From Variovorax sp. OAS795 (GTDB lineage: Bacteria; Pseudomonadota; Gammaproteobacteria; Burkholderiales; Burkholderiaceae_C): 64,000 nt of DNA. Below are positions 29,707-61,676 of this stretch, piece by piece. Below the pieces are notes generated by a model. That model ran no database searches. It was given only the letters and a program-made list of their open reading frames with translations, and was not told the DNA's origin. The position numbers were made by a program, and so were the translations under genes. Within the stretch, counting starts at the first letter, position 1. Each line of letters starts with the position of its first letter. The stretch is taken from NCBI RefSeq assembly GCF_040546685.1, contig NZ_JBEPOH010000001.1, positions 2,418,001 to 2,482,000 of the forward strand. Reading direction: 5' to 3'.

Positions 29707-29721
29707 GGCAATCGGCGTGCC
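29707..29721 (-). promoter_or_regulatory. Sigma-54-like site upstream of the phosphatase unit
   Basis: On the minus strand GGCACG-CCGA-TTGCC: the GG and GC are ten bases apart as sigma-54 requires. It is one of ten similar intergenic sites in this window. Distance to the start codon is unusually short. Confidence 0.55.
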
Positions 29722-29884
29722 CGGTGCAGTCGGCGTTCGCTTCTGCGTGTGCGGCAAGGCCCTGCTCATCAATGGGATCAACCTCGGTCCACGGTGGTGT
29801 CCTGTTCCTTCTCCGAAAAAAATCTGCTAGGTTTTTTCAACACGCTTACACCACACGCAACTGCGAACTTCACCGCCCCCTTTC

Positions 29885-31270
29885 ATGAAAATCTCAGTCC
29901 TCGGTACCGGCTATGTGGGTCTCGTCACGGGCAGCTGCCTGGCGGAGCTCGGCAATGAAGTTTTCTGCTTCGACGTCGACCAGCGCAAGGTGGAGATCCT
30001 CCAGTCGGGTGGCGTGCCGATCCACGAAGAGGGACTGCCGCAGCTCATCGAACGCAACGTGCGCACGGGGCGCCTGCACTTCACCACCGACGTTGCGCGC
30101 GCCGTGCACCATGGCGACCTGATCTTCATCGCGGCCGGCACGCCGCCCGGCCAGGATGGCAGCGCCGATCTGCAGTACGTGATCGCGGCGGGCCGCAGCA
30201 TCGGGCGCCACATGCAAGGCTTCAAGGTGGTGGTGGAGAAGTCGACCGTGCCGGTGGGCACTGCCGGCAAGCTGCGCGCCGCCATCGAGGAAGAGTTGTC
30301 GCAGCGGCGCAGCAATGGCGACCACGCGGCCGGCAGCGGCCTGCACGGCGTTCCCGTGGCGATCGTGTCGAACCCGGAGTTCCTGAAGGAAGGCGCCGCG
30401 GTCGACGACTTCATGCGGCCCGACCGCATCGTGGTCGGAACCGAACCCGGCGAGGAGGGACGCCAGGCGCGCGAGGTGATGACGCGCCTGTATGCGCCGT
30501 TCAACCGCCAGCGCGACCGCATGATCCACATGGACGTGAAGGCGGCCGAATTCACCAAGTACGCCGCCAACGCGATGCTCGCCACACGCATCAGCTTCAT
30601 GAACGAACTCGCCAACCTCGCCGAGAAGGTGGGCGTCGACATCGAGCAGGTGCGCCGCGGCGTCGGCTCCGATCCCCGCATCGGCTACAGCTTTCTCTAT
30701 GCGGGCCTGGGCTACGGCGGCAGCTGTTTTCCCAAGGACGTGCAGGCGCTGGTGCACACCGCCGCCACGCATGGCCAGCGGCTGCACGTGCTGGAGGCCG
30801 TGCGCGCGGTGAACGACGCCCAGAAGCTGGTGCTGATCGAGAAGATCGTGCGCCGCTTCGGCGAAGACCTGCGCGGACGGCGCTTCGGCATCTGGGGCCT
30901 GGCCTTCAAGCCCGACACCGACGACATGCGCGAAGCGCCGAGCCGCATCGTGATCAAGGCCCTGCTGGTGCGCGGGGCGGAGGTGGTCGCCCACGATCCG
31001 GTGGCCATCCCCGAGGCGCGCCGCGTGCTTGCCAGCGACCTCGACGGCATGCCCGAGCTGCTGGCGCGCCTCAGCTATGTCGACAACCCGATGCAGGCGG
31101 CCGAGGACGCCGATGCGCTCGTGGTCCTCACGGACTGGAAGGCGTTCAAGAGCCCGAGCTTCAGCGCGCTGAAGACGGCGCTGCGCCAGCCGCTGATCTT
31201 CGATGGCCGCAACCTCTACGACCCGGAGATCCGCTCGCAGGGTTTCGACTACCTGGCCATCGGGCGCTGA
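29885..31270 (+). CDS. ugd: UDP-glucose 6-dehydrogenase
   Basis: 461 residues. The NAD loop is [17 protein letters not shown], the central domain has [12 protein letters not shown], and the catalytic cysteine is C281 in [10 protein letters not shown]. It oxidises UDP-glucose to UDP-glucuronate in the cytoplasm. The next gene converts UDP-glucuronate to UDP-xylose, so the two supply a pentose nucleotide sugar for the glycosyltransferases further on. It opens the glycan cluster. Confidence 0.95.
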
Positions 31271-31322
31271 AATGATCCCGCCGTGCGGCGCGTAAATGAA
31301 CAAAAGGAACAAGGAGAACGAT

Positions 31323-32372
31323 ATGCGCATCTACAACACCCAACGCCGCATCCTCGTGACCGGAGGCGCAGGCTTCCTGGGCAGCCACCTGTGCGAGCGC
31401 CTGCTGGCGCAGGGCCACGACGTTCTGTGCGTGGACAACTTCTTCACCGGCACGCGGCGCAACGTGGAGCACCTGCTCGGCAATCCGCACTTCGAGCTCA
31501 TGCGCCATGACGTGACCCTGCCGCTGTACGTGGAAGTGGACCAGGTCTACAACCTCGCGTGCCCCGCGTCGCCGGTGCACTACCAGCATGATCCGGTGCA
31601 GACCACCAAGACCAGCGTGCACGGCGCCATCAACATGCTGGGCCTCGCCAAGCGCGTGCATGCGCGCATCCTGCAGGCCTCGACCAGCGAGGTGTATGGC
31701 GACCCGGACGTGCACCCGCAGCCCGAGAGCTACTGGGGCAAGGTCAACCCCATCGGCGTGCGCAGCTGCTACGACGAGGGCAAGCGCTGCGCCGAGACGC
31801 TGTTCTTCGACTACCACCGCCAGCACGGCGTGGACATCCGCGTGGCGCGCATCTTCAACACCTATGGTCCGCGCATGCATCCGCGGGACGGCCGCGTGGT
31901 GTCGAACTTCATCGTGCAGGCGCTTTGCGGCAATCCGATCACCATCTACGGCGAGGGCCTGCAGACACGCAGCTTCTGCTTCGTCGACGACCTGGTGGAG
32001 GGGCTCGAGCGCTTCATGGAGTCCAGCACAGGCGCGGGCCCGGTGAACATCGGCAACCCGGTGGAGTTCACCGTGCGCGAGCTCGCGATGCTGGTGATCC
32101 GTCTCACGGGCTCGTCGTCGAAGCTCGCGTTCGCGCCGCTGCCGTCGGACGATCCCTTGCAGCGCCGGCCCGACATCCGGCTCGCCAAGGAGATGTTCGG
32201 CTGGCAGCCCAGCGTGCAGCTGGAGGAGGGCCTGCGCAAGACCATCGAGTACTTCGACGGCCTGCTCTCGGCCGGCGAACTTCCCGTGGTTCAGCGTGCC
32301 GGCGCGCGCGGCGGTGCCGTGGTGCCGGCATCGGCGAACGGCATCACCGTGCACGCCCGGCTGGACGCGTAG
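31323..32372 (+). CDS. UDP-glucuronate decarboxylase (UDP-xylose synthase type)
   Basis: 349 residues from ATG 31323, with AAGGAGAACGAT in front. SDR features: [16 protein letters not shown] at residue 13, [21 protein letters not shown] and the catalytic SCYDEGKR (YxxxK). The pattern is that of UXS-type decarboxylases. It lies 52 bases after ugd. Its last 82 bases overlap, in antisense, the 3' end of the glycosidase-like gene. Confidence 0.92.
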
Positions 32373-36937: not shown

Positions 36938-36939
36938 GC

Positions 36940-47859: not shown

Positions 47860-47902
47860 GGTTCTCCGTAGCGCCTCCGATCCCCGGTGGCCGGAATGCT
47901 GC

Positions 47903-47917
47903 GCAACGGTCGTGCCA
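47903..47917 (-). promoter_or_regulatory. Sigma-54 promoter upstream of rpoN (autoregulation)
   Basis: Minus strand TGGCACG-ACCG-TTGC, a full match to the -24/-12 consensus. Predicted start near 47891, 32 bases before the rpoN ATG. Confidence 0.78.
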
Positions 47918-48064
47918 AGCCACATCCTCCGGCGAAAAGCCAATAAAGAGTACCAAAGTTCTAACTTAATTCGCGGCCGCCTCGCCGGTCGTGGAAGCCT
48001 TGCGGTAAATCTTGCGGTTATCCCCGGGCAGACAACGAAGGCATATTTGTCACAAACTTCGCAC

Positions 48065-48427
48065 ATGAAAAAAACGTCGGGAGATGCCAGGGAGGGTGCG
48101 GCGGGCACGGCCGCGCTGGTCGGGCTGTGCACTGCCACACTCGTGGGGTTCGGCCTCGCGTGGCGGCAAAAAGCGCGTGCCGCCGAATCGGCCCGGATGC
48201 TCGCGCTTCACCAGGAGCGGCAGGCGCGGCATGCGCTTCGCGCGAAACGCCTCGAGCACGACCTGCGCAGCCCCATCGGCGCCATGGCCGTGGCGCTGGA
48301 GCTGTTGCGCACCGCGGAGGACAGCGCCACGCGATGCGAAGCCATGCAGGTGCTCGAAAGGCAGGTCGCGCGTATGACCTCGCTGACAGAGCAAGTGCAC
48401 GATTTCGCACAGGACTTGAACGATTGA
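48065..48427 (+). CDS. Membrane-anchored orphan histidine-kinase dimerisation (DHp) protein
   Basis: 120 residues. One membrane helix (about 14-34) is followed by a coiled region and a HisKA-type H-box EHDLRSPIGAMAVALELL with H65. The second DHp helix (RCEAMQVLERQVARMTSLTEQV) is present, then the protein stops; there is no ATP-binding domain. It could accept phosphate from another kinase, or dimerise with one. It is divergent from rpoN and upstream of the NtrC-type activator. Confidence 0.8.
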   Translation: MKKTSGDAREGAAGTAALVGLCTATLVGFGLAWRQKARAAESARMLALHQERQARHALRAKRLEHDLRSPIGAMAVALELLRTAEDSATRCEAMQVLERQVARMTSLTEQVHDFAQDLND

Positions 48428-48566: not shown

Positions 48567-50009
48567 GTGGGTCACGCACTCATAGTTGAAGACGACGAAG
48601 ACTCGGCGAAGATGATCGCCGCGCTGGTCGCGCGCGAAGGGCACACGGTCATGTGTGCGCACAGCATTGGCGCCGCGCGAAAGCTCATCGCCATGCAGCG
48701 GCCCGACTTGTTGCTGCTCGACCTGCACCTGCCCGACGGGAACGGTTTCGACCTGCTGCACGACCCGGACATCGCCAACGACACCATGCTGGTGCTGATG
48801 ACGGGCCAGGCGAGCCTGGAGACCTCGATCAAGGCCTTGCGCCTGGGCGCCGCCGACTATCTGGTGAAGCCGATCAATCCGCAGCACCTCAAGGGGCTGC
48901 TCAAGCGCCTGATCGCGCCCTCGCAATTGCGTGCCGAGCTCGACGAGGTGCAGGAGCTCTGGCGCGAGACCGGGCGCTTCGGCCATCTCATCGGCCGCTC
49001 GCAGCCCATGCAGCGCGTCTACCGGCAGATTTCCCGGGTGGCCGGCACGGCCGTGACCGTGTTCATCCATGGCGAGAGCGGCACCGGCAAGGAACTGGTG
49101 GCCCGCGCCGTGCACGACCTGAGCCGGCGGCGCGAGCAGCCCTTTCTTGCCGTCAACTGCGGCGCGCTGTCGCCGCACCTGGTCGAAAGCGAGATCTTCG
49201 GCCACGAGCGCGGCAGCTTCACGGGCGCCGAGCGCCAGCACCAGGGCTTCTTCGAGCGCGCGCACGGCGGCACGCTGTTCCTGGACGAGGTGACCGAAAT
49301 GCCGCTCGAGCTGCAGGTCAAGCTGCTGCGCGTGCTGGAGAGCGGCACCTTCATGCGGGTCGGTTCCACCCAGGTGCAGCAGACCGACGTGCGCATCATC
49401 GCCGCCACCAACCGCGACGCCGCCGAGGCGGTGGCGCGCGGCAAGATGCGGGAAGACCTGCTGTACCGCCTCAACGTCTTTCCCATTGCGCTGCCGCCCC
49501 TGCGCGAGCGCGGCGACGACATCGCGCTCATCGCCGCGAGCTTCCTGCAGGACCTCGGGCGCCAGGAAGGCGGCAGCAAGCGCTTCACGCCCGGTGCGCT
49601 GGCGCGGCTCGCGTCGCACCGCTGGCCGGGCAACGTGCGTGAATTGCGCAACGTGGTGCAGCGCGCCTGGGTCATGGCGTCCGGCGACCAGATCGACGAG
49701 GAATGGCTTCCGCCGGTCGAAGACCCGGGGCCCGGCGCCGGCCTCCGGCCCGAACCCGAGGCGGCGCAAGGCCCGGCGCTGGCGCCGATGCCGCCCGATG
49801 GGCATCGCAATGGCGCTGCCGCGGCCGCGCTGTCGGGCGCGGGGGAGAACCAGATCGTGGTCGAGGTCGGCACCCAGCTCGCGGAAGTGGAACGCCGTGT
49901 CATCCTGGCCACCTACGAGCGCTGCGGGCGGCACAAGGAGCGCACGGCGGCGCTGCTGGGCATCAGCATGAAGACGCTCTACAACCGGCTGAAGGAGTAC
50001 CAGCAATGA
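48567..50009 (+). CDS. NtrC-family sigma-54-dependent response regulator
   Basis: 480 residues from GTG 48567, chosen because AGGA precedes it and the receiver begins at once; a TTG at 48507 is possible. Receiver (1-115) has D9/D10, phospho-site D52 and K101. The AAA+ domain (140-375) has Walker A GESGTGKE at 169-176, the sigma-54 contact loop as GSFTGA (216-221) instead of GAFTGA, and LFLDEVTEMP for Walker B. The C-terminal helix-turn-helix (RHKERTAALLGISMKTLYNRL) is complete. It is the probable activator for the sigma-54-like sites in this region. Confidence 0.93.
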   Translation: MGHALIVEDDEDSAKMIAALVAREGHTVMCAHSIGAARKLIAMQRPDLLLLDLHLPDGNGFDLLHDPDIANDTMLVLMTGQASLETSIKALRLGAADYLVKPINPQHLKGLLKRLIAPSQLRAELDEVQELWRETGRFGHLIGRSQPMQRVYRQISRVAGTAVTVFIHGESGTGKELVARAVHDLSRRREQPFLAVNCGALSPHLVESEIFGHERGSFTGAERQHQGFFERAHGGTLFLDEVTEMPLELQVKLLRVLESGTFMRVGSTQVQQTDVRIIAATNRDAAEAVARGKMREDLLYRLNVFPIALPPLRERGDDIALIAASFLQDLGRQEGGSKRFTPGALARLASHRWPGNVRELRNVVQRAWVMASGDQIDEEWLPPVEDPGPGAGLRPEPEAAQGPALAPMPPDGHRNGAAAAALSGAGENQIVVEVGTQLAEVERRVILATYERCGRHKERTAALLGISMKTLYNRLKEYQQ

Positions 50010-50280: not shown

Positions 50281-50295
50281 GGCAAACTGCGTGCC
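50281..50295 (-). promoter_or_regulatory. Sigma-54-like site upstream of the 78-residue protein
   Basis: Minus strand GGCACG-CAGT-TTGCC. Predicted start near 50270, about 55 bases before ATG 50215. Confidence 0.62.
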
Positions 50296-50318: not shown

Positions 50319-50333
50319 GGTACGCCGTTTGCC
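50319..50333 (+). promoter_or_regulatory. Sigma-54-like site upstream of the CheB/CheR hybrid kinase
   Basis: Plus strand GGTACG-CCGT-TTGCC. One mismatch at the third base. The predicted start (near 50344) falls at the ribosome binding site, so the true initiation site or start codon may differ slightly. Confidence 0.5.
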
Positions 50334-50353: not shown

Positions 50354-53300
50354 TTGAATGACATGAATCCCGACCGCGCCGAGGAAGAACTCGCCGACCA
50401 GCTCGACGATGCCGTGCCGTCGCGCGGCTACCGCATGCTGCCGGTCGTGGGCCTGGGCGGCTCCGCGGGCGGCATCGATGCCGTGGGCGCCTTCTTCGAG
50501 GCCACGCCTGCCGACACCGGCATGGCGTTCGTGGTCGTGCTCTCCGCGCCGGCCGCGAACGAGAACGCGCTGGCCGAGGTGCTGCGGCGGTCCACGCCCA
50601 TGCGGGTGGTGCAGGTGGCCGGCAGGGAGCGCATCCAGCCGAACACCGTGTATGCCATTGCGCCCGGCAAGTCGCTGCGCACGCGCGGGGAGCACATCGA
50701 GCTGGCGGCGCTGCCGCCGGGACCGGGCCGGCACGTGGCGGTCGACTACTTCTTTCGCACGCTGGCCGATACGCACGGGCCCCACGCCATCGCGGTGGTG
50801 CTTTCCGGCCCCGACGGCGACGGCACCATCGGCGTCAAGCGCATCAAGGAGCGCGGCGGCCTGACGATCGCGCAGGAACCGCAGGAGGCCCAGCACGGTG
50901 CCATGGCGCAGTCGGCCATCGCCACGGGGATGATCGACTGGGTCCTGCCCGCGCGTGAAATCGGCGCGCGCATCCATGCCTACTACCGCATCGAGCGGCA
51001 GCTCAGGCTGCCCCCCGAGCAGGTGCCGGGCGACGGCAAGGACGACGCGCCGCCCGCCGCCGACCTCGACGAAGCGGCGTTCCGCGAAGTGCTGGCCTTC
51101 GTGCAAAGCCGCAGCGGACGCGATTTCGCCAACTACAAGCGCGCCACCGTGCTGCGCCGCATCGGCCGCCGCATGCAGGTGAACGGCGTGAGCAACCTCA
51201 CGGCCTATCTCGACTGCCTGCGCACGCGGCCCGGCGAGGCCGGCGCGCTGCTGCAGGACATGCTGATCAGCGTGACCAACTTCTTCCGGGACAACGAATG
51301 CTTTGCCGCCCTCGAAGGCATGGTGCACGAGCTGTTCCGCAACAAGACGGCGGCCGACACCGTGCGCGTCTGGGTGGTGGCCTGCGCCACCGGCGAAGAG
51401 GCCTATTCGATTGCGATGCTGCTCGCCGAGCATGCCCGCACGCTCGAAAGCCCGCCGTCGATCCAGATCTTTGCCACCGACCTGGACGAAGACGCGGTGC
51501 AGGCCGCGCGCGAAGGCGTCTACCCCACGGTGGCCGAGGCGGACGTTTCCGAGGAACGCCTGCGGCGCTTCTTCGTGCGCGAGCAGCGCGGCTACCGCGT
51601 GCGCCGCGAACTGCGCGAGATGGTGCTCTTTGCCGTGCACGACGTGCTGAAGGACTCGCCGTTCTCGCGCATCGACCTGGCCACCTGCCGCAACCTGCTC
51701 ATCTACCTCAACCGGGACGCGCAGGCCCGCGTCTTCGACACGCTGCATTTCTCGCTGCTGCCCGGCGGGCGGCTTTTCCTCGGCGCCTCCGAAGCGGTGG
51801 ACGAGGAAAGCCCGCTGTTCTCGGTGATCGACAAGAAGCACCGCATCTACGCCCAGCGCCATGCGCCCAAGGCCGCGTTGCCGATCCCCGAGGGCCGCAG
51901 CAGCACCGCGCTGGCGCTGGAACTCAAGCGCCCGCCGCCGGTGATTCCCGGCGCGGCCTTCGCGCAGTTGCAGCGCCGCACGGCACCGCCGATGGCCGAC
52001 GGCCGCGCCATGAGCTGGGCCGAGCTGCACCTGCGGCTGCTCGACCGCCTGGCGCCGCCGTCCATCCTGCTGGACGCGGACCACGAGATGCTGCACATCT
52101 CCCCCGCGGCAACGCCGTTCCTGCACTTCAGCGGCGGCGAGCCGTCGCGCAACGTGTTGCGCGCCATCGTGCCCGACCTGAAGGCCGAGCTGCAGACCGC
52201 GCTCTATCACGTGAACGAAAGGCGCGAGCCCGTGGACGTGGCGCCCGTCTGGGTGCGGCTGGGCCCGACCGCCGAGGTGGAGGTGTCGCTGCACGTCATG
52301 CCGGTGGAAGAGTTCGGCGGCTTCATGGTGCTGCTGCGCAAGGGCGAAACGGCCAGCGGCCGCAGCAGCATCGTGGTGCCGCGCGTGGACGCGGAGCCGA
52401 TCGCCGAGCACCTGGAGCGCGAGGTGCGGCGCCTCAAGTCGCAGCTGCGCGAGACCGTGGAGCAGTACGAGACCTCGACCGAGGAGCTCAAGGCGAGCAA
52501 CGAAGAGCTGCACGCCATGAACGAAGAGCTCCATTCGGCAACCGAAGAGCTCGAGACCAGCCGCGAGGAGCTGCAGTCCATCAACGAGGAGCTCACCACC
52601 GTCAACCACGAGCTCAAGAGCAAGGTGGACGATCTCGGCCAGGCCAACAGCGACATGCTGAACCTGATGGACGCGACGGCCATCGCCACCGTGTTCCTGG
52701 ACCGCGATTTCCACGTGACCCGCTTCACGCCGAGCGCGGTCGCCATCTTCAAGCTGATCGCCACCGACGTCGGCCGCCCGCTCTCGGACCTGACCACGCC
52801 GCTGGACTATCCGCAGCTGGCAGACGACGCGCGCCGCGTGCTGGAGACGCTGCAGCCCACCGAGCGCGAGGTGGGCGACAGCGCGGGCAACTGGTACCTT
52901 GCGCGCGTGCGGCCCTACCGCACCATCGAGGACCGCATCGCCGGCGTGGTGCTCACCTTCGTGGACATCACCGAGCGCAAGGACGCGCAGGAGTCGCTGC
53001 GGCAGTCGCAGGAGCGCTTCAGCGCCATCGTCAACCAGGCGTCCGTGGGCGTGGCCCAGACGCGGCTCGACGGCGAGATCACCTTTGCCAACACCTGCTA
53101 CCACGATCTCATGGGCTATGGCGAGCACGAGCTCGTCGGCCTGCGCGCCATCGAACTGGTGCATGCGGCGGACCACGCGGCGATCTCGGCATTGTTCGGG
53201 CGGCTCGAGCGGCATGGCGAACCCTTCGAGAGCGAAAGCCGCAACGTGCGCAAGGACGGCTCCTTCATCTGGCTGCACTACAGCGTGACGGTGCTCACCG

Positions 53301-54973
53301 ACGCGAGCGGCAAGCCCGACTCGGCGCTGATCGTGTGCAGCGACATCAGTGAACGCAAGGGGGCCGAGGAAGCGCTGCGCGCGAGCGAAGAGCGGTTCCG
53401 GCTGATGCTGGAGAACGCGGTCGACTATGCGATCTTCTCGGTCGACATGGAGCGCTGCGTGAAGAGCTGGAACACCGGCGCCGAGCGGCTCCTGGGCTAC
53501 ACCGAATCGGAGATCCTCGGCCGCTCGGCCGACATCATCTTCACCGAGGAAGACCGCGCGGCGGGCGCGCCGGCCGAGGAGGCGCGCAACGCGCTCAGCG
53601 CCGGCAGGGCCGCCGACGACCGGCTGCACCAGCGCAAGGACGGCTCGCGCTTCTGGGCCAGCGGCGCCCTCATGCCCATGCACAACGGCGAAGGCGCGGT
53701 GATCGGCATGGTCAAGGTGCTGCGCGACCAGAGCGAGCAGCGCGCGGCGCAGCAGGAAGTGGAGCAAAGCCGCAGCGAACTGCTCGATGCGCTGCGCGCC
53801 AACGAGGCCGCGCGCCAGGCGCTCGAAGCCGCGGATGCGGCCAAGGACCGCTTCCTGGCCGTGCTGTCGCACGAGCTGCGCAATCCGCTCGCCTCGATCA
53901 GCGGCGCCGCGGAACTGCTGGCGCCCGAGCAGCTGCCCACGCCGGAGCAGGGGCGTGCGGCGCGCGTGGTCCGGCGCCAGGCGGCGGCCATGAAGGTGCT
54001 GCTGGGCGACCTGCTCGACGTGTCCAGCCTGCGCCGGGGCCGGCTGGTGCTGCGGCGCGAGCGCGTCACGGCCCAGGCCATCGTCGATGCGGCGCTGGAG
54101 GCGACCGGACCGCTGATGGAACTGGGCCGCCACAGGCTCGAAGCGGAGATCGCCGACGCCGAGATCGTGCTCGATGCCGATCCCATGCGCCTCACGCAGG
54201 TGATCTCCAACCTGCTCTCCAATGCGGCCAAGTACACGCCCGACAAGGGCGAGATCCGGCTCGCGCTGCACACCGAGGGCGACGACGCCGTGTTCTCCGT
54301 GACCGACAACGGCATCGGCATGGACCCCGACACGGTCGACACCATGTTCGAGATGTTCACCCAGAGCGTGCATGGGCACGAGCGCTCCGCCGGTGGGCTC
54401 GGCATCGGGCTGGCGCTGGTGCGCAACATCGTCGAGATGCACGGCGGCACCGTCTCGGGCGAGAGCAGGGGGCTGGGGCTCGGGAGCCGGTTCACGGTGC
54501 GCATCCCGCAAGCCGAAACGCGACTGGCCGAAGCCGGGGCCGCGCAGGGTCCGGACAGGGACCTGCCCGCTTCCGCCCCCGGCGAGGAAAGTCCGCAGCG
54601 CGTGCTGCTGGCGGACGACAACACGGACGCCCTCTGGGGCATGGCCCGCATGCTGTCGATCTCGGGCTTCAGCGTGAAGACGGCCGACAACGGCGTCGAT
54701 GCGCTTCGCGTGGCCGAGCACTTCAGGCCCGATGCGGCGGTGCTGGACATCGGCATGCCGGGGCTCGATGGCCACGAGGTGGCACGCCGCATCCGCGCGC
54801 AGCCCTGGGGACGCGGCATGCTCCTTGTCGCCGCCACCGGGTGGGGCCAGCCCGAAGACCGGCTTGCTGCGCTGGAGGCGGGCTTCGACGAGCACCTGGT
54901 CAAGCCCGTGGCGGCAGCCGACGTGCAGCGCCTGCTGCGGGCGCGCGACGGATTGTCCGGGCCGGGGAGCTGA
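50354..54973 (+). CDS. CheB-CheR-PAS-histidine kinase-receiver fusion protein
   Basis: 1539 residues from TTG 50354 (AAGGAG seven bases upstream); ATG 50363 is the alternative. Order: CheB-type methylesterase (about 30-205), CheR-type methyltransferase (about 235-500, with ACATGEEAYSIAM and CRNLLIYL), a long coiled coil of repeated EEL.. units (about 700-760), three PAS domains (about 770-1140), HisKA (SHELRNPLASISGAAELL), HATPase (NLLSNAAKYTPDKGE, DNGIGMD) and a C-terminal receiver (LADDNTD, VLDIGMPG). In the CheB part the catalytic serine is kept (S37, GGSAGG) but the histidine of the triad is replaced by serine (S64), so methylesterase activity is doubtful. A free CheB follows in the operon. 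Confidence 0.92.
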   Translation: MNDMNPDRAEEELADQLDDAVPSRGYRMLPVVGLGGSAGGIDAVGAFFEATPADTGMAFVVVLSAPAANENALAEVLRRSTPMRVVQVAGRERIQPNTVYAIAPGKSLRTRGEHIELAALPPGPGRHVAVDYFFRTLADTHGPHAIAVVLSGPDGDGTIGVKRIKERGGLTIAQEPQEAQHGAMAQSAIATGMIDWVLPAREIGARIHAYYRIERQLRLPPEQVPGDGKDDAPPAADLDEAAFREVLAFVQSRSGRDFANYKRATVLRRIGRRMQVNGVSNLTAYLDCLRTRPGEAGALLQDMLISVTNFFRDNECFAALEGMVHELFRNKTAADTVRVWVVACATGEEAYSIAMLLAEHARTLESPPSIQIFATDLDEDAVQAAREGVYPTVAEADVSEERLRRFFVREQRGYRVRRELREMVLFAVHDVLKDSPFSRIDLATCRNLLIYLNRDAQARVFDTLHFSLLPGGRLFLGASEAVDEESPLFSVIDKKHRIYAQRHAPKAALPIPEGRSSTALALELKRPPPVIPGAAFAQLQRRTAPPMADGRAMSWAELHLRLLDRLAPPSILLDADHEMLHISPAATPFLHFSGGEPSRNVLRAIVPDLKAELQTALYHVNERREPVDVAPVWVRLGPTAEVEVSLHVMPVEEFGGFMVLLRKGETASGRSSIVVPRVDAEPIAEHLEREVRRLKSQLRETVEQYETSTEELKASNEELHAMNEELHSATEELETSREELQSINEELTTVNHELKSKVDDLGQANSDMLNLMDATAIATVFLDRDFHVTRFTPSAVAIFKLIATDVGRPLSDLTTPLDYPQLADDARRVLETLQPTEREVGDSAGNWYLARVRPYRTIEDRIAGVVLTFVDITERKDAQESLRQSQERFSAIVNQASVGVAQTRLDGEITFANTCYHDLMGYGEHELVGLRAIELVHAADHAAISALFGRLERHGEPFESESRNVRKDGSFIWLHYSVTVLTDASGKPDSALIVCSDISERKGAEEALRASEERFRLMLENAVDYAIFSVDMERCVKSWNTGAERLLGYTESEILGRSADIIFTEEDRAAGAPAEEARNALSAGRAADDRLHQRKDGSRFWASGALMPMHNGEGAVIGMVKVLRDQSEQRAAQQEVEQSRSELLDALRANEAARQALEAADAAKDRFLAVLSHELRNPLASISGAAELLAPEQLPTPEQGRAARVVRRQAAAMKVLLGDLLDVSSLRRGRLVLRRERVTAQAIVDAALEATGPLMELGRHRLEAEIADAEIVLDADPMRLTQVISNLLSNAAKYTPDKGEIRLALHTEGDDAVFSVTDNGIGMDPDTVDTMFEMFTQSVHGHERSAGGLGIGLALVRNIVEMHGGTVSGESRGLGLGSRFTVRIPQAETRLAEAGAAQGPDRDLPASAPGEESPQRVLLADDNTDALWGMARMLSISGFSVKTADNGVDALRVAEHFRPDAAVLDIGMPGLDGHEVARRIRAQPWGRGMLLVAATGWGQPEDRLAALEAGFDEHLVKPVAAADVQRLLRARDGLSGPGS

Positions 54974-56067
54974 TGGCCCCGCCCGGCGCGCCGGGCACGC
55001 CGATTGCCCTGCAAGGAGGAGACCCCTATTCGCCGTACTTCTTCTTGTCAGGAATGCCCAACTCCGATCCCCATCAACAAGCCATCTTCATCGGCGCTTC
55101 CTCCGGAGGCGTCTATGCCATGCTCGATCTCGTCGCGGCCTTGCCGGCCGGCTTTCCCGCGCCGATCTTCTTCGTGCAGCACATCGGTGCCCACCGCAGC
55201 CAGCTGGCTTCGCTGCTGAGCAGCCGAGGACCCAACCGCGCCGTCGAGGCGAAGGAGGGCGACGAGCCCGCGCCGGGGACGATCTGCGTCGCGCCCTCGG
55301 ACCATCACATGCTGCTGGAAGGCGGCGTGGTCCGCCTGACCCGCGGACCCAAGGAACACCATGCCCGCCCCGCCATCGATCCGCTGTTTCGCTCCGCTGC
55401 GCTGGCCTACGGCCCGCGTGCCGTCGGCGTGGTTCTCACGGGCATGCTCGACGACGGCAGCGCCGGACTGCGCGCCATCAAGGACTGCGGCGGCATTGCC
55501 GTGGTGCAGGACCCGGCCGAAGCGCATGAGCCCAGCATGCCGCAGAGCGCGATGGCCGCAGTGCAGGTGGACCACGTGGTTCCGCTGCGCGGCATGGGCC
55601 GGCTCCTGTTCGACCTGGCGCAGCCGCGCACCGGCGACCTGCCGGCCACCGAGGCACCGGCCACCCTGCGCCGCGAAAACGCCGTGGCGTTGGGGGAGCG
55701 CGCCGTGGAAAACCTGAAGGCGATCGGCAAGCCGTCGATGTTCAGCTGCCCGGACTGCGGGGGCGTGCTGTTCGAGCTGGACGACAAGCGCCCGGTACGC
55801 TACCGCTGCCACACCGGCCATGCCTTCAGCGTGCGCAGCCTGGCCGCCACGCAGGAGCAGGTGACCGACGTTGCGCTGTGGACCGGCCTGCGGGCGCTGC
55901 AGGAGAAGGAGTCGATCCTGCGGCGGCTGGCCCAGGTCCAGAAGGCGGAAGGTGTCGGCGACGCCGAGAGCTCGCTGCGCGAGGCCGACGAACTCGCCGT
56001 TGCGAGCGCCGCATTGCGCAAGCTCACGTTGAAGGCCCCCAGTCCGGGAAGCTTCGACGCGAGCTGA
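54973..56067 (+). CDS. Stand-alone CheB-type methylesterase with zinc-ribbon tail
   Basis: 364 residues. The triad is complete: S43 in GASSGG, H70 in FVQHIG and D161 in GMLDDGSAG. No receiver domain precedes it. The C-terminal part has a zinc ribbon (CPDCGG at 259-264, CHTGH at 279-283) and a helical tail, a variant seen in CheB proteins outside chemotaxis. It starts in a TGATG overlap with the fusion gene and could replace the inactive CheB domain there. ATG 55054 is a possible shorter start. Confidence 0.9.
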   Translation: MAPPGAPGTPIALQGGDPYSPYFFLSGMPNSDPHQQAIFIGASSGGVYAMLDLVAALPAGFPAPIFFVQHIGAHRSQLASLLSSRGPNRAVEAKEGDEPAPGTICVAPSDHHMLLEGGVVRLTRGPKEHHARPAIDPLFRSAALAYGPRAVGVVLTGMLDDGSAGLRAIKDCGGIAVVQDPAEAHEPSMPQSAMAAVQVDHVVPLRGMGRLLFDLAQPRTGDLPATEAPATLRRENAVALGERAVENLKAIGKPSMFSCPDCGGVLFELDDKRPVRYRCHTGHAFSVRSLAATQEQVTDVALWTGLRALQEKESILRRLAQVQKAEGVGDAESSLREADELAVASAALRKLTLKAPSPGSFDAS

Positions 56068-56076
56068 GGCGGCGCA

Positions 56077-56997
56077 TCACTTTCTTGGCGGCATGGTGCT
56101 ATCGCCGTCCCCGGACAGGGCCGGTCCTTCGCCCATGCCGAGTTCCGCACCCGTGAGCGGATCGCCATCGGGGCGCGACTGGGTCCGCATGGCCATCTGC
56201 TCGAGCACCGGCGCATCGGCGGCGTCGAGCTCGACCGTGGCCAGGCCGTCGCCGCCGTCCACCGGCCCCGAATCCTGCGTGACGGGCACGAAGTCCCAGC
56301 GCTCGCCCTGGTTCCAGGGGCCGCGCAGGTCGGCCTCGCCCTGGGACATGCGGAAGTACACGTTGGTGAAGCGCGGGTCGCCGGGCAGCTTGCCCGGTGG
56401 GAAGTTGGGCTCGATGGCATAGAGTGCCTTCTCGAACGATTTCTGGTGCGCGATCTCGCGCGTCATCAGGAAGCCGAGTGCTTCTTTCACGCCCGGATCG
56501 TCCGTGAGGTTGATCAGCCGCTCGTAGACGATCTTGGCGCGCGCCTCGGCCGCGATGTTGGAGCGCAGGTCGGCCGTGGGTTCGCCGATGGTGTCGATGT
56601 AGGCGGCCGTCCAGGGCACGCCGGCCGAGTTGACCAGCGCGGGGCCGCCGCCATAGAGCACCTGCGTGACATGGCTGTCGTTGCCTGCGCCGGTGATGGT
56701 GCGGTACATCTCGCCTTGCTCTTCCACGCCTTCGGCGAGGCGTCCCTTGGCGCCCTTGTTGAGCATGCCGACGATGGTGCCGATGATCTCGAGGTGGCTC
56801 AGCTCCTCGGTCGAGATGTCGAACAGCATGTCCTTGCGGCCCGGGTCGTCGTCGCCGAGCGCCTGGGTGAAATAGCGGCAGGCCGCGGCCAGCTCGCCCT
56901 GCGGGCCGCCGAACTGTTCGAGCATGAGGTTGGCAAGGCCGGGATTGGTCTCGCTGACGCGCACCGTGTACTGCAATCGCTTGTTGTGGGAGAACAT
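56077..56997 (-). CDS. Manganese catalase
   Basis: 306 residues from ATG 56997, with AAGGAG upstream. The four-helix bundle has the dimanganese ligands in GGPQGELAAACRYFTQAL, ELSHLEIIGTIVGML, SNIAAEARAKIVYE and TREIAHQKSFEKAL. It converts hydrogen peroxide to water and oxygen. A perfect-looking sigma-54-like site lies at 57070-57084, and the KGG-type stress gene is divergent from it. Confidence 0.93.
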   Translation of the reverse strand: MFSHNKRLQYTVRVSETNPGLANLMLEQFGGPQGELAAACRYFTQALGDDDPGRKDMLFDISTEELSHLEIIGTIVGMLNKGAKGRLAEGVEEQGEMYRTITGAGNDSHVTQVLYGGGPALVNSAGVPWTAAYIDTIGEPTADLRSNIAAEARAKIVYERLINLTDDPGVKEALGFLMTREIAHQKSFEKALYAIEPNFPPGKLPGDPRFTNVYFRMSQGEADLRGPWNQGERWDFVPVTQDSGPVDGGDGLATVELDAADAPVLEQMAMRTQSRPDGDPLTGAELGMGEGPALSGDGDSTMPPRK

Positions 56998-57069: not shown

Positions 57070-57084
57070 GGCAAGCGGCGTGCC
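57070..57084 (-). promoter_or_regulatory. Sigma-54-like site upstream of manganese catalase
   Basis: Minus strand GGCACG-CCGC-TTGCC. Predicted start near 57059, 62 bases before the ATG. The same 15-mer appears facing the other way at 57116-57130. Confidence 0.75.
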
Positions 57085-57115: not shown

Positions 57116-57130
57116 GGCACGCCGCTTGCC
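57116..57130 (+). promoter_or_regulatory. Sigma-54-like site upstream of the KGG-type stress gene
   Basis: Plus strand GGCACG-CCGC-TTGCC, identical to the catalase site. Predicted start near 57141, 63 bases before ATG 57204. Confidence 0.75.
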
Positions 57131-57203
57131 GAAGAAAGGGTCTGCGCGCAATGGTTGCGCGCACAGGCCCGCACTGTTTCGCGGATCGAAGGAAGACATC
57201 TCA

Positions 57204-57410
57204 ATGGAAAACCAAGAAGGGCGCGCCCGTTCCAGGCGCGGATTTGCCGGAATGAGTCCTGAACGGCAAAGGGAGATCGCAAGGCAGGGCGGGCGGGCGG
57301 CCCATGAGTTGGGACGCGCGCATGAATTCACTCCCGAGGAAGCTCGCCAGGCCCGGGCCAAGAGCCTCAGCGCTCGTGCGCAGGCCGCTCCGCTGCAGCA
57401 GCAGGAGTAG
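57204..57410 (+). CDS. KGG-type (GsiB-like) small stress protein
   Basis: 68 residues. Contains the motif GFAGMSPERQREIARQGGRA and HEFTPEEARQA of the stress-induced KGG/Con-10 family. These proteins are hydrophilic and accumulate in stationary or osmotic stress. It is divergent from the manganese catalase with matching promoters. Confidence 0.87.
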   Translation: MENQEGRARSRRGFAGMSPERQREIARQGGRAAHELGRAHEFTPEEARQARAKSLSARAQAAPLQQQE

Positions 57411-57443: not shown

Positions 57444-58013
57444 TCAGGTGATCGCGGCGTGCAGCGCGGCCGGCTCGAAGGAACGCGCCAGCACGGCATC
57501 GAATCCCGCGATGCCGCCCTTGTCCTGCTGGTCCTGCGCCAGCGGCGATCCCCAGACGGCCACCATGCGGCCCTCGAATCCGGCGCCCCGTGCGCGCTGC
57601 GCCAGCGAGAGGGCCGTGCCGGTCGACGTGCGCACGTCGACCACGGCGAGCTCGGGCGCGCGCTTCATGAGGGCGTTGTAGCCGCCGTCGCTGCTCGCGG
57701 CGAGGTCGACCTTGTAGCCCGCATCCGACAGCAGCACCCCCAGCACCGCCAGCAGTCCGGCATCGTCGGACACGGCCAGCGCACGGCCGCTGGCGTGGGT
57801 GCCGCGCTGCGCATGGGCGACGAGTTCGCTCATCCGCGCCGAGAGCTGGCGGGATTGGCGCGCCACCACCACGCCCGCCTCGCGAAGCACCGCCTGCGGC
57901 AGCTCCACGCGCGCGAGTATTTCGCTGGCCGACGAGATCGCAGCCAGCGCGTTGCGTGCATCGTGCACGCAGCGCTTCAGGTCCCGGGTGTCTTCGAGGA
58001 GAGTTCGAGTCAT
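57444..58013 (-). CDS. DHp-like plus receiver protein without an ATPase domain
   Basis: 189 residues. Residues 5-70 are HisKA-like (RCVHDARNALAAISSASEIL with H17). Residues 76-185 are a receiver-like fold with D126 in AVVDVRTSTG, but the conserved lysine is replaced by arginine (VLARSFEP). No ATP-binding domain is present. It could be a phosphotransfer or decoy element of the same network as the hybrid kinase. A palindromic sigma-54-like site lies 33-47 bases upstream. Confidence 0.8.
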   Translation of the reverse strand: MTRTLLEDTRDLKRCVHDARNALAAISSASEILARVELPQAVLREAGVVVARQSRQLSARMSELVAHAQRGTHASGRALAVSDDAGLLAVLGVLLSDAGYKVDLAASSDGGYNALMKRAPELAVVDVRTSTGTALSLAQRARGAGFEGRMVAVWGSPLAQDQQDKGGIAGFDAVLARSFEPAALHAAIT

Positions 58014-58045: not shown

Positions 58046-58060
58046 GGCACGCGGCGTGCC
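58046..58060. promoter_or_regulatory. Palindromic sigma-54-like site upstream of the DHp-receiver gene
   Basis: GGCACG-CGGC-GTGCC reads almost the same on both strands. The -12 has GTGC rather than TTGC. On the minus strand it would start transcription about 22 bases before ATG 58013. Confidence 0.45.
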
Positions 58061-58257
58061 TGCGGCATGGCATGGCATGGCCGCTGCTGCCGAGCCCGCC
58101 CCGCGCCGCCATTTGCTGCAAGTTTTGCAAGGCCCGGGTTCATGCGCGCGCGGCTGACACGAACGGCCGCGCGGGGACGACAGGGCATGCCAGGGGCCGG
58201 GACACCATGGCCTGGCCAGCCGCAGAAAAGCCCGCATCAATGAGCCAAGGAGCAGCC

Positions 58258-58512: not shown

Positions 58513-59406
58513 TCAGCGCGGCCCGACCACGGCCTCGAGGAATTCGATCAGCGCCTTCGACGGATCGTCCCGCGCCAGGGGAATCATCTCGATGCCCCAC
58601 TGCGCGAGCACCGCCTGCTGCACCTCGTTGGCCGAGGGCGAGAAGAGGTAGGAAACCGGCTGCGCCACGTCGGGCACCGACTGCTTCCACAGCCGAGAGA
58701 GCTTGTAGAAGAGATAGCGGATGTTCACGTCCGCGAGGCTGTAGCCGATGAAGACCACCGAGCGTCCGAGCACGTCGGCGCGCAGCTTGATGTCCAGCGG
58801 CGACTCGAAGTCCAGCCGCGCGAAGTAGCTGCTCTCGTCGAGCACGATGGACGCGTCGTCTTCCAGGTCGCCATGGAACTTGATGATCTGCGTGGCGCCG
58901 GGGTGCAGCTTGGCAAGGTCGGCAACACTCACGATCTTGGTGTACTTCACCTTGTGGTGGTCGAACGCGGCTTCCAGCCAGCGGTCGTAGTTGGTGGTGT
59001 AGATGATCGGGAAGCGCCCCTTGGCCAGCAGCTCGTGGATGCGCGAGCTCTCCACGCGCACGTCGTTGCGGTGCCATTCGCGGTCCATCCAGCTGCGCAG
59101 CGGGCCGATGCTGCCGTGCCGGAGGCGAAAGTATTCGGCCAGGGTCAGGTAGCCGCCCTTGTCGCCGAACGACCGAGCATCGATGCCGAGCTCGCGCGCC
59201 ATGTGCTCGATGAGCGCCGACCATGGTGGCAGCCCCAGGCCCATCGAGATGCCCGCCCCCACGAACAGCACCACCTTGCCGCGCCGGTGCGCTTCGCGCA
59301 GCTGCGCGAGCTTTTCGCCATCGGCCTTTTGCACCGGAAGGCGCGGCGTTGCCGGTGCTGCGCTGCGTCTTGCAACGCGCCGGCCGGTACGCTGCGTCGT
59401 GGACAC
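58513..59406 (-). CDS. SIR2-domain protein (SIR2_2-type)
   Basis: 297 residues from GTG 59406. Sirtuin-like NAD motifs are present: VVLFVGAGISMGLGLPPW (46-62), TTNYD (137-141), the catalytic-type histidine in KFHGD (H178) and GYSLAD (221-226). This subgroup lacks the zinc finger of deacetylases and in characterised cases is an NADase in antiphage systems. Here it begins three bases after cytochrome oxidase subunit I in the same operon, an unusual place. No effector partner of known defence systems is near. Confidence 0.87.
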   Translation of the reverse strand: MSTTQRTGRRVARRSAAPATPRLPVQKADGEKLAQLREAHRRGKVVLFVGAGISMGLGLPPWSALIEHMARELGIDARSFGDKGGYLTLAEYFRLRHGSIGPLRSWMDREWHRNDVRVESSRIHELLAKGRFPIIYTTNYDRWLEAAFDHHKVKYTKIVSVADLAKLHPGATQIIKFHGDLEDDASIVLDESSYFARLDFESPLDIKLRADVLGRSVVFIGYSLADVNIRYLFYKLSRLWKQSVPDVAQPVSYLFSPSANEVQQAVLAQWGIEMIPLARDDPSKALIEFLEAVVGPR

Positions 59407-59409
59407 GGA

Positions 59410-61059
59410 TCAGCCGACCACCCGGGTCGCCGTGGCGTCGAGCCGGGGCGGGGTCTCGAAGGTGTGGAAAGGCGCGGGCGAAGGCACCTCCCACTCGAGT
59501 CCCTCGGCGCCGTCCCACGGCCTGGCGGGTGCCGGCTTGCCGCGCTTGCGCAGCGCGGGCAGCACGACGAACAGCACGAAGTAGGCCTGGCCGAGCCCGA
59601 ACACGAAGGCGCCGATGCTGGCGACGAGGTTGAAGTCGGCAAACTGCATCGGATAGTCGGCATAGCGGCGCGGCATGCCCGCCAGGCCCAGGAAGTGCAG
59701 CGGGAAGAAGCCGACGTTGAAGCTCGTGATCGACACCCAGAAGTGGATCTGGCCGCGAAGCTCGTCGTACATGACGCCCGTCCACTTGGGCGACCAGTAG
59801 TAGTAGCCGGCGAACATCGCGAAGAGCGAGCCCGCCACCAGCACGTAGTGGAAGTGCGCCACCACGTAGTGGGTGTCGTGCACCTGGATGTCGATCGGCG
59901 AGATGGAAAGAATCACCCCGCTGAGTCCGCCGATCGAGAACACGAAGATGAATCCCATCGCGAACAGCATCGGCGTCTCGAGCGAAAGCGAGGACTGCCA
60001 CATGGTGGCGATCCAGTTGAACACCTTCACCGCCGTGGGCACGGCGACGAGCATGGTCGCGTACATGAAGAACAGCTGGCCCGTGACGGGCATGCCGGTG
60101 GTGAACATGTGGTGCGCCCACACGATGAACGAAAGAATCGCGATCGACGCGGTGGCGTAGACCATCGACGAGTAGCCGAACAGCCGCTTGCGTGAAAAAG
60201 CCGGCACCACCTGGCTGACGATCCCGAAGGCCGGCAGGATCATGATGTAGACCTCCGGGTGGCCGAAGAACCAGAAGATGTGCTGGAACAGCACCGGGTC
60301 GCCGCCGCCCGCGGGGTTGAAGAAGGTGGTGCCGAAGTGGCGGTCGGTCAGCAGCATGGTCACCGCGCCGGCCAGCACGGGCATCACGGCCAGCAGCAGG
60401 TAGGCAGTGATGAGCCAGGTCCAGCAGAACAGCGGCATCTTCATGAGCGTCATGCCGGGCGCGCGCATGTTCAGGATGGTGACGATGATGTTGATGGCGC
60501 CCATGATCGAACTCGCGCCCATGATGTGCACGGCAAAGATGCCCAGATCCATGGCCGGCCCCATCTGCAGGCTCAGCGGCGGGTAGAGCGTCCAGCCCGA
60601 GGCGGCGGCGCCGTCGGCGCTGAAGAAGGGCGCGATCAGCATCAGCGCCGCCGGCGGCAGCAGCCAGAAGCTGAAGTTGTTCATGCGCGCAAAGGCCATG
60701 TCGGAGGCGCCGACCTGCAGCGGCACCATCCAGTTCGCAAACCCCACGAAGGCCGGCATGATCGCGCCGAACACCATCACGAGCCCGTGGATGGTGACGA
60801 ACTGGTTGTAGAGCTCGGGGTTGAGCAGCTGCAGCCCCGGCTGGAACAGCTCGGCGCGGATGCCCAGCGCGAGCACGCCGCCCACCATCAGCATCGAGAG
60901 GCTGAACAGCAGGTACAGCGTGCCGATGTCCTTATGGTTGGTGGCCAGGAGCCAGCGCCGCCAGCCGTGGGGCAGGGCATGGTGCTCGTCGTGCGCGCCC
61001 GCGGCGGGCGCGGGGTCGTTGGCAGCAAGGGCGTCGAGGGGATGGTGGGTGAAGCTCAT
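59410..61059 (-). CDS. Haem-copper cytochrome oxidase subunit I
   Basis: 549 residues from ATG 61059 with twelve membrane helices. The crosslinked His-Tyr motif is HPEVY, with HHMFTTGMP and the haem ligands in HDTHYVVAHFHYVLV. This is an aa3-type (CtaD-like) subunit. Subunits II and III and assembly genes are not adjacent, so this is an extra copy that must borrow partners or work with unlinked ones. It lies between DUF2244 and SIR2-domain genes. Confidence 0.92.
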   Translation of the reverse strand: MSFTHHPLDALAANDPAPAAGAHDEHHALPHGWRRWLLATNHKDIGTLYLLFSLSMLMVGGVLALGIRAELFQPGLQLLNPELYNQFVTIHGLVMVFGAIMPAFVGFANWMVPLQVGASDMAFARMNNFSFWLLPPAALMLIAPFFSADGAAASGWTLYPPLSLQMGPAMDLGIFAVHIMGASSIMGAINIIVTILNMRAPGMTLMKMPLFCWTWLITAYLLLAVMPVLAGAVTMLLTDRHFGTTFFNPAGGGDPVLFQHIFWFFGHPEVYIMILPAFGIVSQVVPAFSRKRLFGYSSMVYATASIAILSFIVWAHHMFTTGMPVTGQLFFMYATMLVAVPTAVKVFNWIATMWQSSLSLETPMLFAMGFIFVFSIGGLSGVILSISPIDIQVHDTHYVVAHFHYVLVAGSLFAMFAGYYYWSPKWTGVMYDELRGQIHFWVSITSFNVGFFPLHFLGLAGMPRRYADYPMQFADFNLVASIGAFVFGLGQAYFVLFVVLPALRKRGKPAPARPWDGAEGLEWEVPSPAPFHTFETPPRLDATATRVVG

Positions 61060-61114
61060 GGCGGGCGGCCGGTGATGGATGGCAACGGCATTCGGCAAGC
61101 CGGGTGCCCGGCAG

Positions 61115-61624
61115 TCAGCCCGGGCTTCCGGCCGTTCGCACGGCCGCCAGCGTGCGGCTGAAATCCGCAGCGAACCGGCGCCGCTGCGCGTCGGCCAGGT
61201 ACACCGCCACGGGCACCCGGATGCGGCCGCTGCACAGCGCCGGCGGTGCCGCGCCTTGCGGGCATTCGAGCCGGGTCCAGCAGGGGTCCAGCCGCACGGT
61301 GGTCGAACGGAAGCCGCGCCGGCACTGCACCTCGAGCGTCCGGCCGGTGAGCACCAGCTGCTCGCCGTCGAGCGCGTGCGCCGCATGGCAGGCCACGGCA
61401 GCCGCAAGTGCGAGGGCCTGGCAGGCGCAGAAGCCGAACACCACCGGGTAGCCCGCGACCCAGAACCCGACGCCGATGGCGCAGCTGGCACCGGCCGCCG
61501 CGCCGACATGCAGCATGAAGGCGCGCGGCGTCATCGCGATGTTGCGCGTGAGGTTCCAGCGCACGGCGGCGGGTGCCGCGGCATGCGTGGGTGTCTCTGC
61601 GCAGGGGTCGACAAGGGCTGGCAT
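61115..61624 (-). CDS. DUF2244-family membrane protein
   Basis: 169 residues from ATG 61624, with CCGGAG upstream. An N-terminal region WNLTRNIAMTPRAFMLH, two membrane helices (about 39-76) and LVLTGRTLEVQCR belong to DUF2244. Such genes are often found next to cytochrome oxidase genes. It is the first gene of the operon with subunit I and the SIR2-domain protein and has a sigma-54-like site 38-52 bases upstream. Confidence 0.85.
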   Translation of the reverse strand: MPALVDPCAETPTHAAAPAAVRWNLTRNIAMTPRAFMLHVGAAAGASCAIGVGFWVAGYPVVFGFCACQALALAAAVACHAAHALDGEQLVLTGRTLEVQCRRGFRSTTVRLDPCWTRLECPQGAAPPALCSGRIRVPVAVYLADAQRRRFAADFSRTLAAVRTAGSPG

Positions 61625-61661
61625 TCTTGCTCCGGCAGGTCCCGCCACAGGCACTTTCCTC

Positions 61662-61676
61662 GGCAACCGGCATGCC
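61662..61676 (-). promoter_or_regulatory. Sigma-54-like site upstream of the DUF2244-oxidase-SIR2 operon
   Basis: Minus strand GGCATG-CCGG-TTGCC. Predicted start near 61651, 27 bases before ATG 61624. Confidence 0.65.

Follow-up and report, generated by a model that had tools for sequence, protein, structure and literature searches.

A conserved gene island in Variovorax places a second sigma-54 gene (rpoN2) amid likely stress-protection genes that carry one altered sigma-54 promoter sequence, an arrangement whose sequences suggest a separate sigma-54 switch. We put at roughly two in three the probability that this is a regulatory island around a sigma-54 paralogue, with a kinase and an activator turning on rpoN2 and the resulting RpoN2 reading the promoters of the regulon. 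The preliminary description of the window (the whole 64,000-nucleotide stretch analysed) had proposed ten sigma-54-type sites as one self-regulated unit; the sigma-54-type promoter set stands, but its treatment as a single self-regulated class is not supported by the sequences.

A shared class of candidate promoters among putative stress genes

Eleven sites of one class (C-N-GGCAYG-CCG-N-TTGCC, hereafter the regulon class) were found in the window, all intergenic and with a start codon 15–78 bases downstream, preceding genes for a manganese catalase, a KGG-type protein, a DUF4142 protein, a phosphatase, a DUF2244–oxidase–SIR2 group, small proteins and signalling parts. The core originally described was present at all ten places given for it, and nine of these sites form one class, but the tenth, before rpoN2, lacks TTGCC and belongs to another, and two sites, at 54994 (+) before CheB and 61094 (−) before the oxidase gene, had been overlooked. 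The label 'stress' draws on the gene families, which fit a general stress regulon (Pfam), and on the roles usually associated with them.

The site at 29707..29721 (−; matrix score 25.6) is present as described, though merely 15 bases ahead of the start codon called here for a dual-specificity phosphatase (29153..29692, −; PF22785 and PF00782); it recurs in the same place in G066, G096 and G091, and the phosphatase unit also includes a 582-amino-acid protein (27405..29153, −) with no Pfam or NCBIfam match. A DUF4142 gene (44782..45363, −; PF13628) is preceded by a site at 45433..45447 (−; 20.6) that recurs in G004, G025, G066, G096, G091 and G094, and a 94-amino-acid gene (45524–45808) by one at 45460..45474 (+; 25.3) that recurs in relatives. 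Among the signalling parts, a GGTACG variant at 50319..50333 (+; 19.9) precedes the hybrid kinase gene and recurs in G004, G066, G096 and G094, and as GGTATG in G091, while the site at 50281..50295 (−; 22.1), also recurrent in relatives, precedes a 78-amino-acid gene (49980–50212). The overlooked site at 54994..55008 (+; 26.0) counts as upstream of the CheB methylesterase gene (55054..56067, +; PF01339) if that gene starts at 55054, as we propose, and not at the caller's 54973; it recurs before CheB in G030, G004, G066, G096, G091 and G114.

The manganese catalase gene (56077..56997, −; PF05067) and a small gene (57204..57410, +; no NCBIfam match), whose product we take from its sequence to be KGG-type, are preceded by sites at 57070..57084 (−; 25.4) and 57116..57130 (+; 27.8, the window's highest); the two 15-mers are identical, as had been reported, and stand 73 and 74 bases ahead of their respective starts. 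Before a DHp-like and receiver-like protein (57444..57968, −; receiver match weak and below cut-off, DHp part recognized by eye), the GTGCC-type site at 58046..58060 (−) is likewise present, but it is a perfect palindrome readable on both strands and the least certain assignment, with 21.5 bits toward the gene and 9.7 in the opposite direction. The DUF2244 membrane protein gene (61115..61624, −; PF10003) has a site at 61662..61676 (−; 26.6), and the gene for haem-copper oxidase subunit I (59410..61059, −; PF00115, TIGR02891) has the second overlooked site at 61094..61108 (−; 18.1, with GGCACC for GGCACG), whose equivalent place is occupied in G004, G096 and G091; the SIR2-like protein is encoded at 58513..59334 (−; PF13289).

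Chance matches in a GC-rich genome are an extremely improbable source of these sites: single matches do occur within genes (36 of the 69 core matches outside the window, the other 33 being intergenic), but shuffles, reversed and altered-spacer controls, and recurrence at equivalent places in relatives contradict this explanation. The core GGCAYGN4TTGC had 9 exact matches in the window and, with one mismatch allowed, 36 against 21.5 expected, a count reached by none of 100 shuffles. Across the whole genome (6.09 Mb) there were 78 exact core matches, whereas the reversed pattern matched 20 times; the island's 32 kb contains 9 of these 78, where an even spread would give 0.4. A weight matrix trained on 103 sites from other genomes only and applied at a threshold of at least 18 bits marked 11 places in the window, recovering nine of the ten sites first described and adding two, while dinucleotide shuffles (n = 100) gave a mean of 0.05 such places (maximum 1; best shuffled score 21.6). 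The preliminary description had named equal frequency in coding DNA as the outcome that would tell against it; instead, 118 regulon-class matches were intergenic and 7 coding in 37 island-type stretches (36 from the genus Variovorax, RpoN2-less genomes included, plus G057 of another family; sites from closely related genomes do not count as independent observations). Control patterns with a spacer one base shorter or one base longer, or with the motif reversed, had no intergenic match in the 37 stretches. Thirteen islands of other genera also show a sigma-54-type promoter set (22 intergenic versus 2 coding matches).

The regulon sites have GG and GC elements at fixed spacing before genes, as sigma-54 promoters do, although the base after TTGC is C in 66/69 of them, where the usual sigma-54 consensus has A or T. 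The GGCA and TGCC arms form inverted repeats, perfectly so at 58046, as would be expected if the 15-mer were a dyad operator (GGCA-N7-TGCC) for another transcription factor and no promoter. We judge this unlikely, and markedly so, because of site direction: with both-strand matches dropped beforehand, 44 of the 53 informative sites in the 37 stretches aim at the next gene, as do 9/9 in other genera (an earlier count gave 31/35). Its halves are also unequal (GGCAYG versus GGCAA), and the TGCC arm is missing from the rpoN2 site in 28/28 loci. Six of the nine misdirected sites lie at the position of the 78-amino-acid gene, missed there by the gene caller (genes outside the window were called with a simple codon-bias script) and called at the equivalent position in G034, G030, G025 and G012, which leaves three wrong-way sites (G028, G074 and G064) without such an excuse. 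Comparison between genomes gives good support to a set of sigma-54-type promoters, conserved in many Variovorax genomes, that surrounds a second rpoN together with an NtrC-type activator; the placing of both genes within the set, part of the original account, was borne out.

RpoN2 and the candidate promoter of its gene

RpoN2 (46414..47859, −) matches the sigma-54 activator-interacting (AID), core-binding (CBD) and DNA-binding (DBD) domains of Pfam (PF00309, PF04963 and PF04552) above their cut-offs and NF009118 at 458 bits (cut-off 396), and its clade stands apart from canonical RpoN (100/100). Its RpoN box is present but reads ARRTVTKYRQ, compared with ARRTVAKYRE in canonical RpoN; the Ala-to-Thr change occurs in 43/43 and the Glu-to-Gln change in 42/43 RpoN2 proteins, and the helix-turn-helix is altered as well. 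These changes would be consistent with specificity of RpoN2 for the regulon promoters. In the plasmid collection, one record contains an RpoN2 at E ≤ 1e-80.

The site before rpoN2 itself (47902..47916, −; TTGGCACGACCGTTGCG), with an exact core in 28 of 30 rpoN2 loci, reads GGCACGACCGTTGCG on the minus strand and so does not fit TTGCC. In the 28 loci with the exact core, the class is TGGCAC-N5-TTGC[G/A], the base after TTGC being G or A; C never occurs at −11 and the CCG spacer is absent. A T precedes GG at rpoN2 sites and is not preferred at this genome's other intergenic core sites (8/33), so it is no general trait of promoters for the canonical protein, RpoN1. Differences at −11, in the spacer and in the base preceding GG set the rpoN2 site apart, so that rpoN2 appears to use one promoter type and its presumed regulon another; across the 28 loci compared, the sequences do not point to the simple self-regulation originally proposed.

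An element of the form TTGCNGCAAN3TTGC lies 79–109 bases upstream in 20 of the 28 rpoN2 loci with the exact site. Here the candidate enhancer is TTGCGGTAAATCTTGC (48000..48015), with one mismatch and aligned with relatives; an exact candidate element, TTGCTGCAAGTTTTGC, lies at 58113..58128, and in most close relatives the full element occurs twice in the island, once at rpoN2 and once elsewhere. One common enhancer for all regulon promoters was looked for and not found, the element being absent from most of them. Separately, GCAAN3TTGC, half of the candidate enhancer (GCAATGGTTGC, 57148..57158), sits directly downstream of the KGG site and keeps the same offset from it in five genomes.

Genomes with and without RpoN2

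The pattern GGCAYGCCGNTTGCC averaged 4.9 matches per genome in 31 genomes with RpoN2 and 1.5 in 69 without, whereas its reverse averaged 0.39 and 0.32, respectively. Among the matches listed for 15 genomes (those with listed places plus the window's genome, leaving out G095 and one G001 place), 50 of 88 sites were at most 50 kb from rpoN2. The activator was found in 30/31 genomes with RpoN2 and in 6/69 others, six RpoN2-less genomes thus carrying a close activator.

These distributions bear on whether the sites are real sigma-54 promoters read by canonical RpoN1, with RpoN2 redundant or serving other genes and the class difference reflecting shared island ancestry. The core would suit any sigma-54, and three genomes (G005, G009 and G074), in which canonical RpoN was the only one found and neither RpoN2 nor the activator passed the thresholds applied, nevertheless have the class near a manganese catalase gene; the class can therefore not be regarded as strictly exclusive to RpoN2. 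Against RpoN1 as the reader, the class is concentrated around rpoN2, and the RpoN2-less genomes examined show mostly coding background, with 17 of 20 sites inside genes (a further G009 site, intergenic and upstream of the catalase gene, had been identified beforehand and does not figure among the 20). Within this genome, −11 is C at 7/8 exact intergenic island sites versus 6/33 elsewhere (Fisher P = 5 × 10−4), and the RpoN box and helix-turn-helix are changed in RpoN2. Overall, we consider RpoN1 as the reader unlikely, and RpoN2 as the reader of the regulon promoters the preferred interpretation. Among the five RpoN2-less genomes with the catalase gene, G086 and G119 are without such a site; in G005 the catalase site is of the palindromic type and a TTGCC type precedes KGG, and G074 carries an additional catalase gene at which no site is aimed.

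A possible cascade and related systems

Three signalling genes could feed such a switch: a CheB–CheR–PAS hybrid histidine kinase with a receiver (50363..54973, +; Pfam); an NtrC-type activator (48567..50009, +) with a receiver, an AAA+ domain (PF00158), a Fis-type helix-turn-helix (PF02954) and GSFTGA as its GAFTGA-type loop, features of an enhancer-binding protein; and a small DHp protein without an ATPase domain (48065..48427, +; Pfam HisKA on a 76-amino-acid part, longer start taken). The hybrid kinase would sense a stress and pass phosphate, perhaps via the DHp proteins, to the activator. Bound at the TTGCNGCAAN3TTGC element, the activator would use either canonical or island sigma-54 to open the promoter of rpoN2. 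The RpoN2 holoenzyme would next read the altered promoters, those of the kinase and CheB included, so that a positive loop would close.

A fuller version, advanced tentatively and at something short of even odds, is a sigma-54 to sigma-54 cascade in which the stress kinase and activator let canonical sigma-54 turn on rpoN2. RpoN2 would then be the sole reader of a general-stress regulon across Variovorax and further members of the Burkholderiales, its RpoN box and helix-turn-helix having changed along with its promoters at −11, in the spacer and at the upstream base. If protein and promoters did change together, a single cell would contain two naturally separate sigma-54 systems, and some 100 naturally occurring sites with 43 proteins would allow sigma-54 promoter choice to be tested. 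Stress protection would lie behind a switch that stays off until the ATPase fires. General stress is usually run by sigma-S, sigma-B or EcfG; the alphaproteobacterial EcfG response resembles the system proposed here in joining a dedicated sigma factor to kinase input, while the island has a sigma-54 with an AAA+ activator.

No publication on the island was found among the literature matches listed, which is weak evidence because subscription journals were mostly outside their scope. In Rhodobacter (Cereibacter) sphaeroides, promoters of the paralogues RpoN1 and RpoN2 are reported to differ at −11 (PMC11999139, PMC3162934), a precedent that by analogy would support the proposed reading; as in the island, the sigma-54 paralogues have their own activators (NifA and FleQ) and gene sets. 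That pair, however, serves nitrogen fixation and flagella, whereas the Burkholderiales island holds catalase, KGG, DUF4142 and oxidase genes, and its classes differ not at −11 alone but also in spacer and in the base preceding GG. A possible parallel is RpoN2 of Burkholderia pseudomallei, likewise a second RpoN with a link to a catalase gene, katE (PMC4745423), but KatE is not a manganese catalase, and the part of that report available describes no island or altered class. In the related Aquincola tertiaricarbonis, another possible parallel, RpoN1 is one of four rpoN paralogues and has a mapped −24/−12 start; a PEP-CTERM gene is under its control, as is floc formation (PMC9850573). Manganese catalase and KGG proteins, represented by katN and yciG-type genes, are stress genes under sigma-S in Salmonella and Escherichia coli (PMC7161692, PMC5363993), whereas in the island they have sigma-54-type promoters.

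The idea that the sigma-54 regulon substitutes for a missing RpoS was rejected as a general one. None of 61 genomes reached the RpoS model cut-off (378.7 bits), and three RpoN2 genomes (G001, G025 and G064) had only matches of the weaker kind; in this genome, however, a 358.8-bit match beside a 277-bit match read as RpoD indicates that an RpoS-like protein is present.

Promoter-like sites in the window and its relatives

All ten of the sigma-54 promoter-like sites in the preliminary description are present in the window. In this genome, the core pattern GGCAYGN4TTGC is about four times commoner than its reversed control (78 versus 20 matches); 9 of the 78 exact matches sit in this 32 kb (29707..61676), and 33 of the 69 outside the window are intergenic (flanks of all 69 fetched and scanned). 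A weight matrix was built from 103 intergenic sites in islands of other genomes, with none from the window. All of its top eleven window places are intergenic and precede a start codon by 15-78 bases (54994 counts only if CheB starts at 55054), and those ranked 12 and 13 (16.4 and 14.7 bits) both lie within genes; in each of 100 dinucleotide shuffles of the window, at most one place reached 18 bits. Nine of the ten described sites are among the top eleven, with two others, 54994 and 61094, having been missed. On sequence grounds, the site set is real, larger than first reported, and marks a conserved RpoN2 island.

Across 37 stretches, in which intergenic DNA makes up 15% of bases, GGYAYGN4TTGCC occurred 118 times between genes versus 7 times within them, rather than with the equal frequency in coding DNA that the preliminary description had set as the contrary outcome; controls with the spacer one base shorter, one base longer or the motif reversed gave no intergenic matches in these stretches. 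Thirteen islands from other genera gave 22 intergenic versus 2 genic matches. Site position is kept in at least three relatives each before the DUF4142, 94-aa, phosphatase, 78-aa, hybrid kinase (50363..54973, +), CheB (55054..56067, +), manganese catalase (56077..56997, −), KGG (57204..57410, +), oxidase (59410..61059, −) and DUF2244 genes.

Two putative promoter classes and the second sigma factor

Base counts for the regulon class used the 69 of 90 intergenic core matches (16 stretches: window, 14 genus genomes and G057) that precede, in the correct orientation, any gene except rpoN2. The base after TTGC was C in 66, the first and third spacer bases were C and G, respectively, in 60 each, and T preceded GG in 6. 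The second sigma-54 gene, rpoN2 (46414..47859, −), has its own site at 47902..47916 (−), and was compared at 30 loci from 31 genomes (G095 left out). Exact GGYAYGN4TTGC lies upstream in 28 (GGCACA replaces GGCACG in the remaining two), with T before GG in 26 of the 28 and G (25) or A (3) after TTGC in all; none has a CCG spacer. Among 13 rpoN2 genes of other genera, 8 have a core site near the start, and the site nearest the gene always ends in A or G. Comparison of exact intergenic core sites within this genome gave C after TTGC in 7 of 8 island sites versus 6 of the 33 others (Fisher p 5e-4); T precedes GG in only 8 of those 33, so the genome's other sites do not generally share the T of rpoN2.

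Contact with the −24 element is made by the RpoN box and with the −12 element by the helix-turn-helix. Two RpoN-box positions differ: an Ala found in 15 of 15 canonical proteins is Thr in all 43 RpoN2 proteins, and a Glu found in 13 of 15 is Gln in 42 of 43; in the helix-turn-helix, canonical VTTQ becomes mostly TVHN in genus RpoN2 and VTNN in 13 of 13 others. Arg 377, aligned with residue 383 of solved chain 7qv9_M, is kept. The novelty is the pairing of two putative promoter classes with matching sigma-factor changes.

Of the 28 rpoN2 loci with an exact site, 20 also have an upstream TTGCNGCAAN3TTGC-type element, counted in both orientations. Its nearest spacing is 79 in one locus, 87-90 in five, 96-102 in eight and 108-109 in six. 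Successive groups are offset by roughly one turn of the helix, which would be consistent with an activator occupying a single face of the DNA. The window's candidate enhancer copy (48000-48015) has one mismatch and stands outside the 20 counted loci. The shorter GCAAN3TTGC was found 46 times between versus 17 times within genes (N2 control, 8 versus 14; N4 control, 4 versus 25). One copy, at 57148-57158, lies just downstream of the KGG site, at the same offset in the window, G034, G030, G004 and G066, and four bases different in G091.

Distribution of RpoN2 and its link to the regulon class

RpoN2 was found in 31 of 100 genus genomes (E < 1e-100) and, family-wide, in 65 of 349 genomes (two belonging to the genus) and 33 of 141 genera, at 44-53% identity in other genera; scanned named genome records yielded four relatives, of which three are Variovorax (83-88% identity). 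In a tree of 58 proteins, 43 RpoN2 rows separated from 15 canonical rows (support 100/100), with 29 of 30 genus rows in one clade and that of G028 among other genera. A Comamonadaceae isolate from an Arabidopsis leaf carries one copy on a 424-kb plasmid, where a single small gene separates it from an activator gene.

Genomes with RpoN2 averaged 4.9 matches to GGCAYGCCGNTTGCC (152 in 31) versus 1.5 in those without (103 in 69), the reversed control giving 0.39 and 0.32; 50 of 88 sites in 15 RpoN2 genomes lay within 50 kb of rpoN2, and in five genomes lacking RpoN2, 17 of the 20 examined sites sit inside genes. A relative of the NtrC-type activator (48567..50009, +; E ≤ 1e-120) occurs in 30 of 31 RpoN2 genomes versus 6 of 69 others, and the catalase gene in 5 of the 69. 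A strict link is opposed by G005, G009 and G074, which carry the regulon class beside catalase, yet have no RpoN2 or activator at the thresholds used.

Proposed control and neighbouring genes

In the activator, a receiver is combined with AAA+ and HTH domains and a GSFTGA motif; the hybrid kinase joins CheB, CheR and PAS to kinase and receiver domains. The island also encodes a small HisKA-domain protein without an ATPase domain and a second, DHp-like protein that matches a receiver only weakly; phosphate might be relayed through the two. Because regulon-class sites precede the kinase and CheB genes, a positive loop is possible, and since the rpoN2 site belongs to a different class, control may be a two-step switch, with the first step served by canonical RpoN (RpoN1) or RpoN2. 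Rhodobacter sphaeroides sigma-54 paralogue promoters are reported to differ at −11 (PMC11999139, PMC3162934), the base after TTGC, as the putative classes here also do; RpoN2 supports katE expression in Burkholderia pseudomallei (PMC4745423); Aquincola has four rpoN paralogues (PMC9850573); and in enterics, KGG genes and katN are under sigma-S control (PMC7161692, PMC5363993). No description of this island was found among the literature matches listed.

Small proteins at 45524-45808 and 46079-46372 look alike by eye, as does a copy 25 kb past the window (L035, C1 near 2507600); a regulon-class site 126 bases upstream of the latter suggests that the regulon may extend beyond the window. A 582-aa protein (27405-29153), with no match in Pfam or NCBIfam, is encoded with the phosphatase, a pair kept in relatives. 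The phosphatase site is separated from the remaining island by a sugar-nucleotide and glycosyltransferase cluster (29885-44239), which itself lacks regulon-class sites in the window and adjoins rpoN2, on either side, in many relatives. A close activator paralogue (71-78% identical) lies near a gene for a ~2400-residue protein in six fetched stretches (L172, L173, L174, L175, L179 and L180), none containing rpoN2. In several relatives (L102-L106, L181-L186 and others), catalase and KGG are separated by a 165-aa gene, its product presumably resembling YciF-type (DUF892) proteins. At 58513-61624, haem-copper oxidase subunit I, with no subunit II called, lies between DUF2244 and a SIR2-like protein whose weak match is to the N-terminal part of Dsr1, an anti-phage protein; in the G064 rpoN2 island (L187), oxidase subunit I and II-like genes lie near regulon-class sites.
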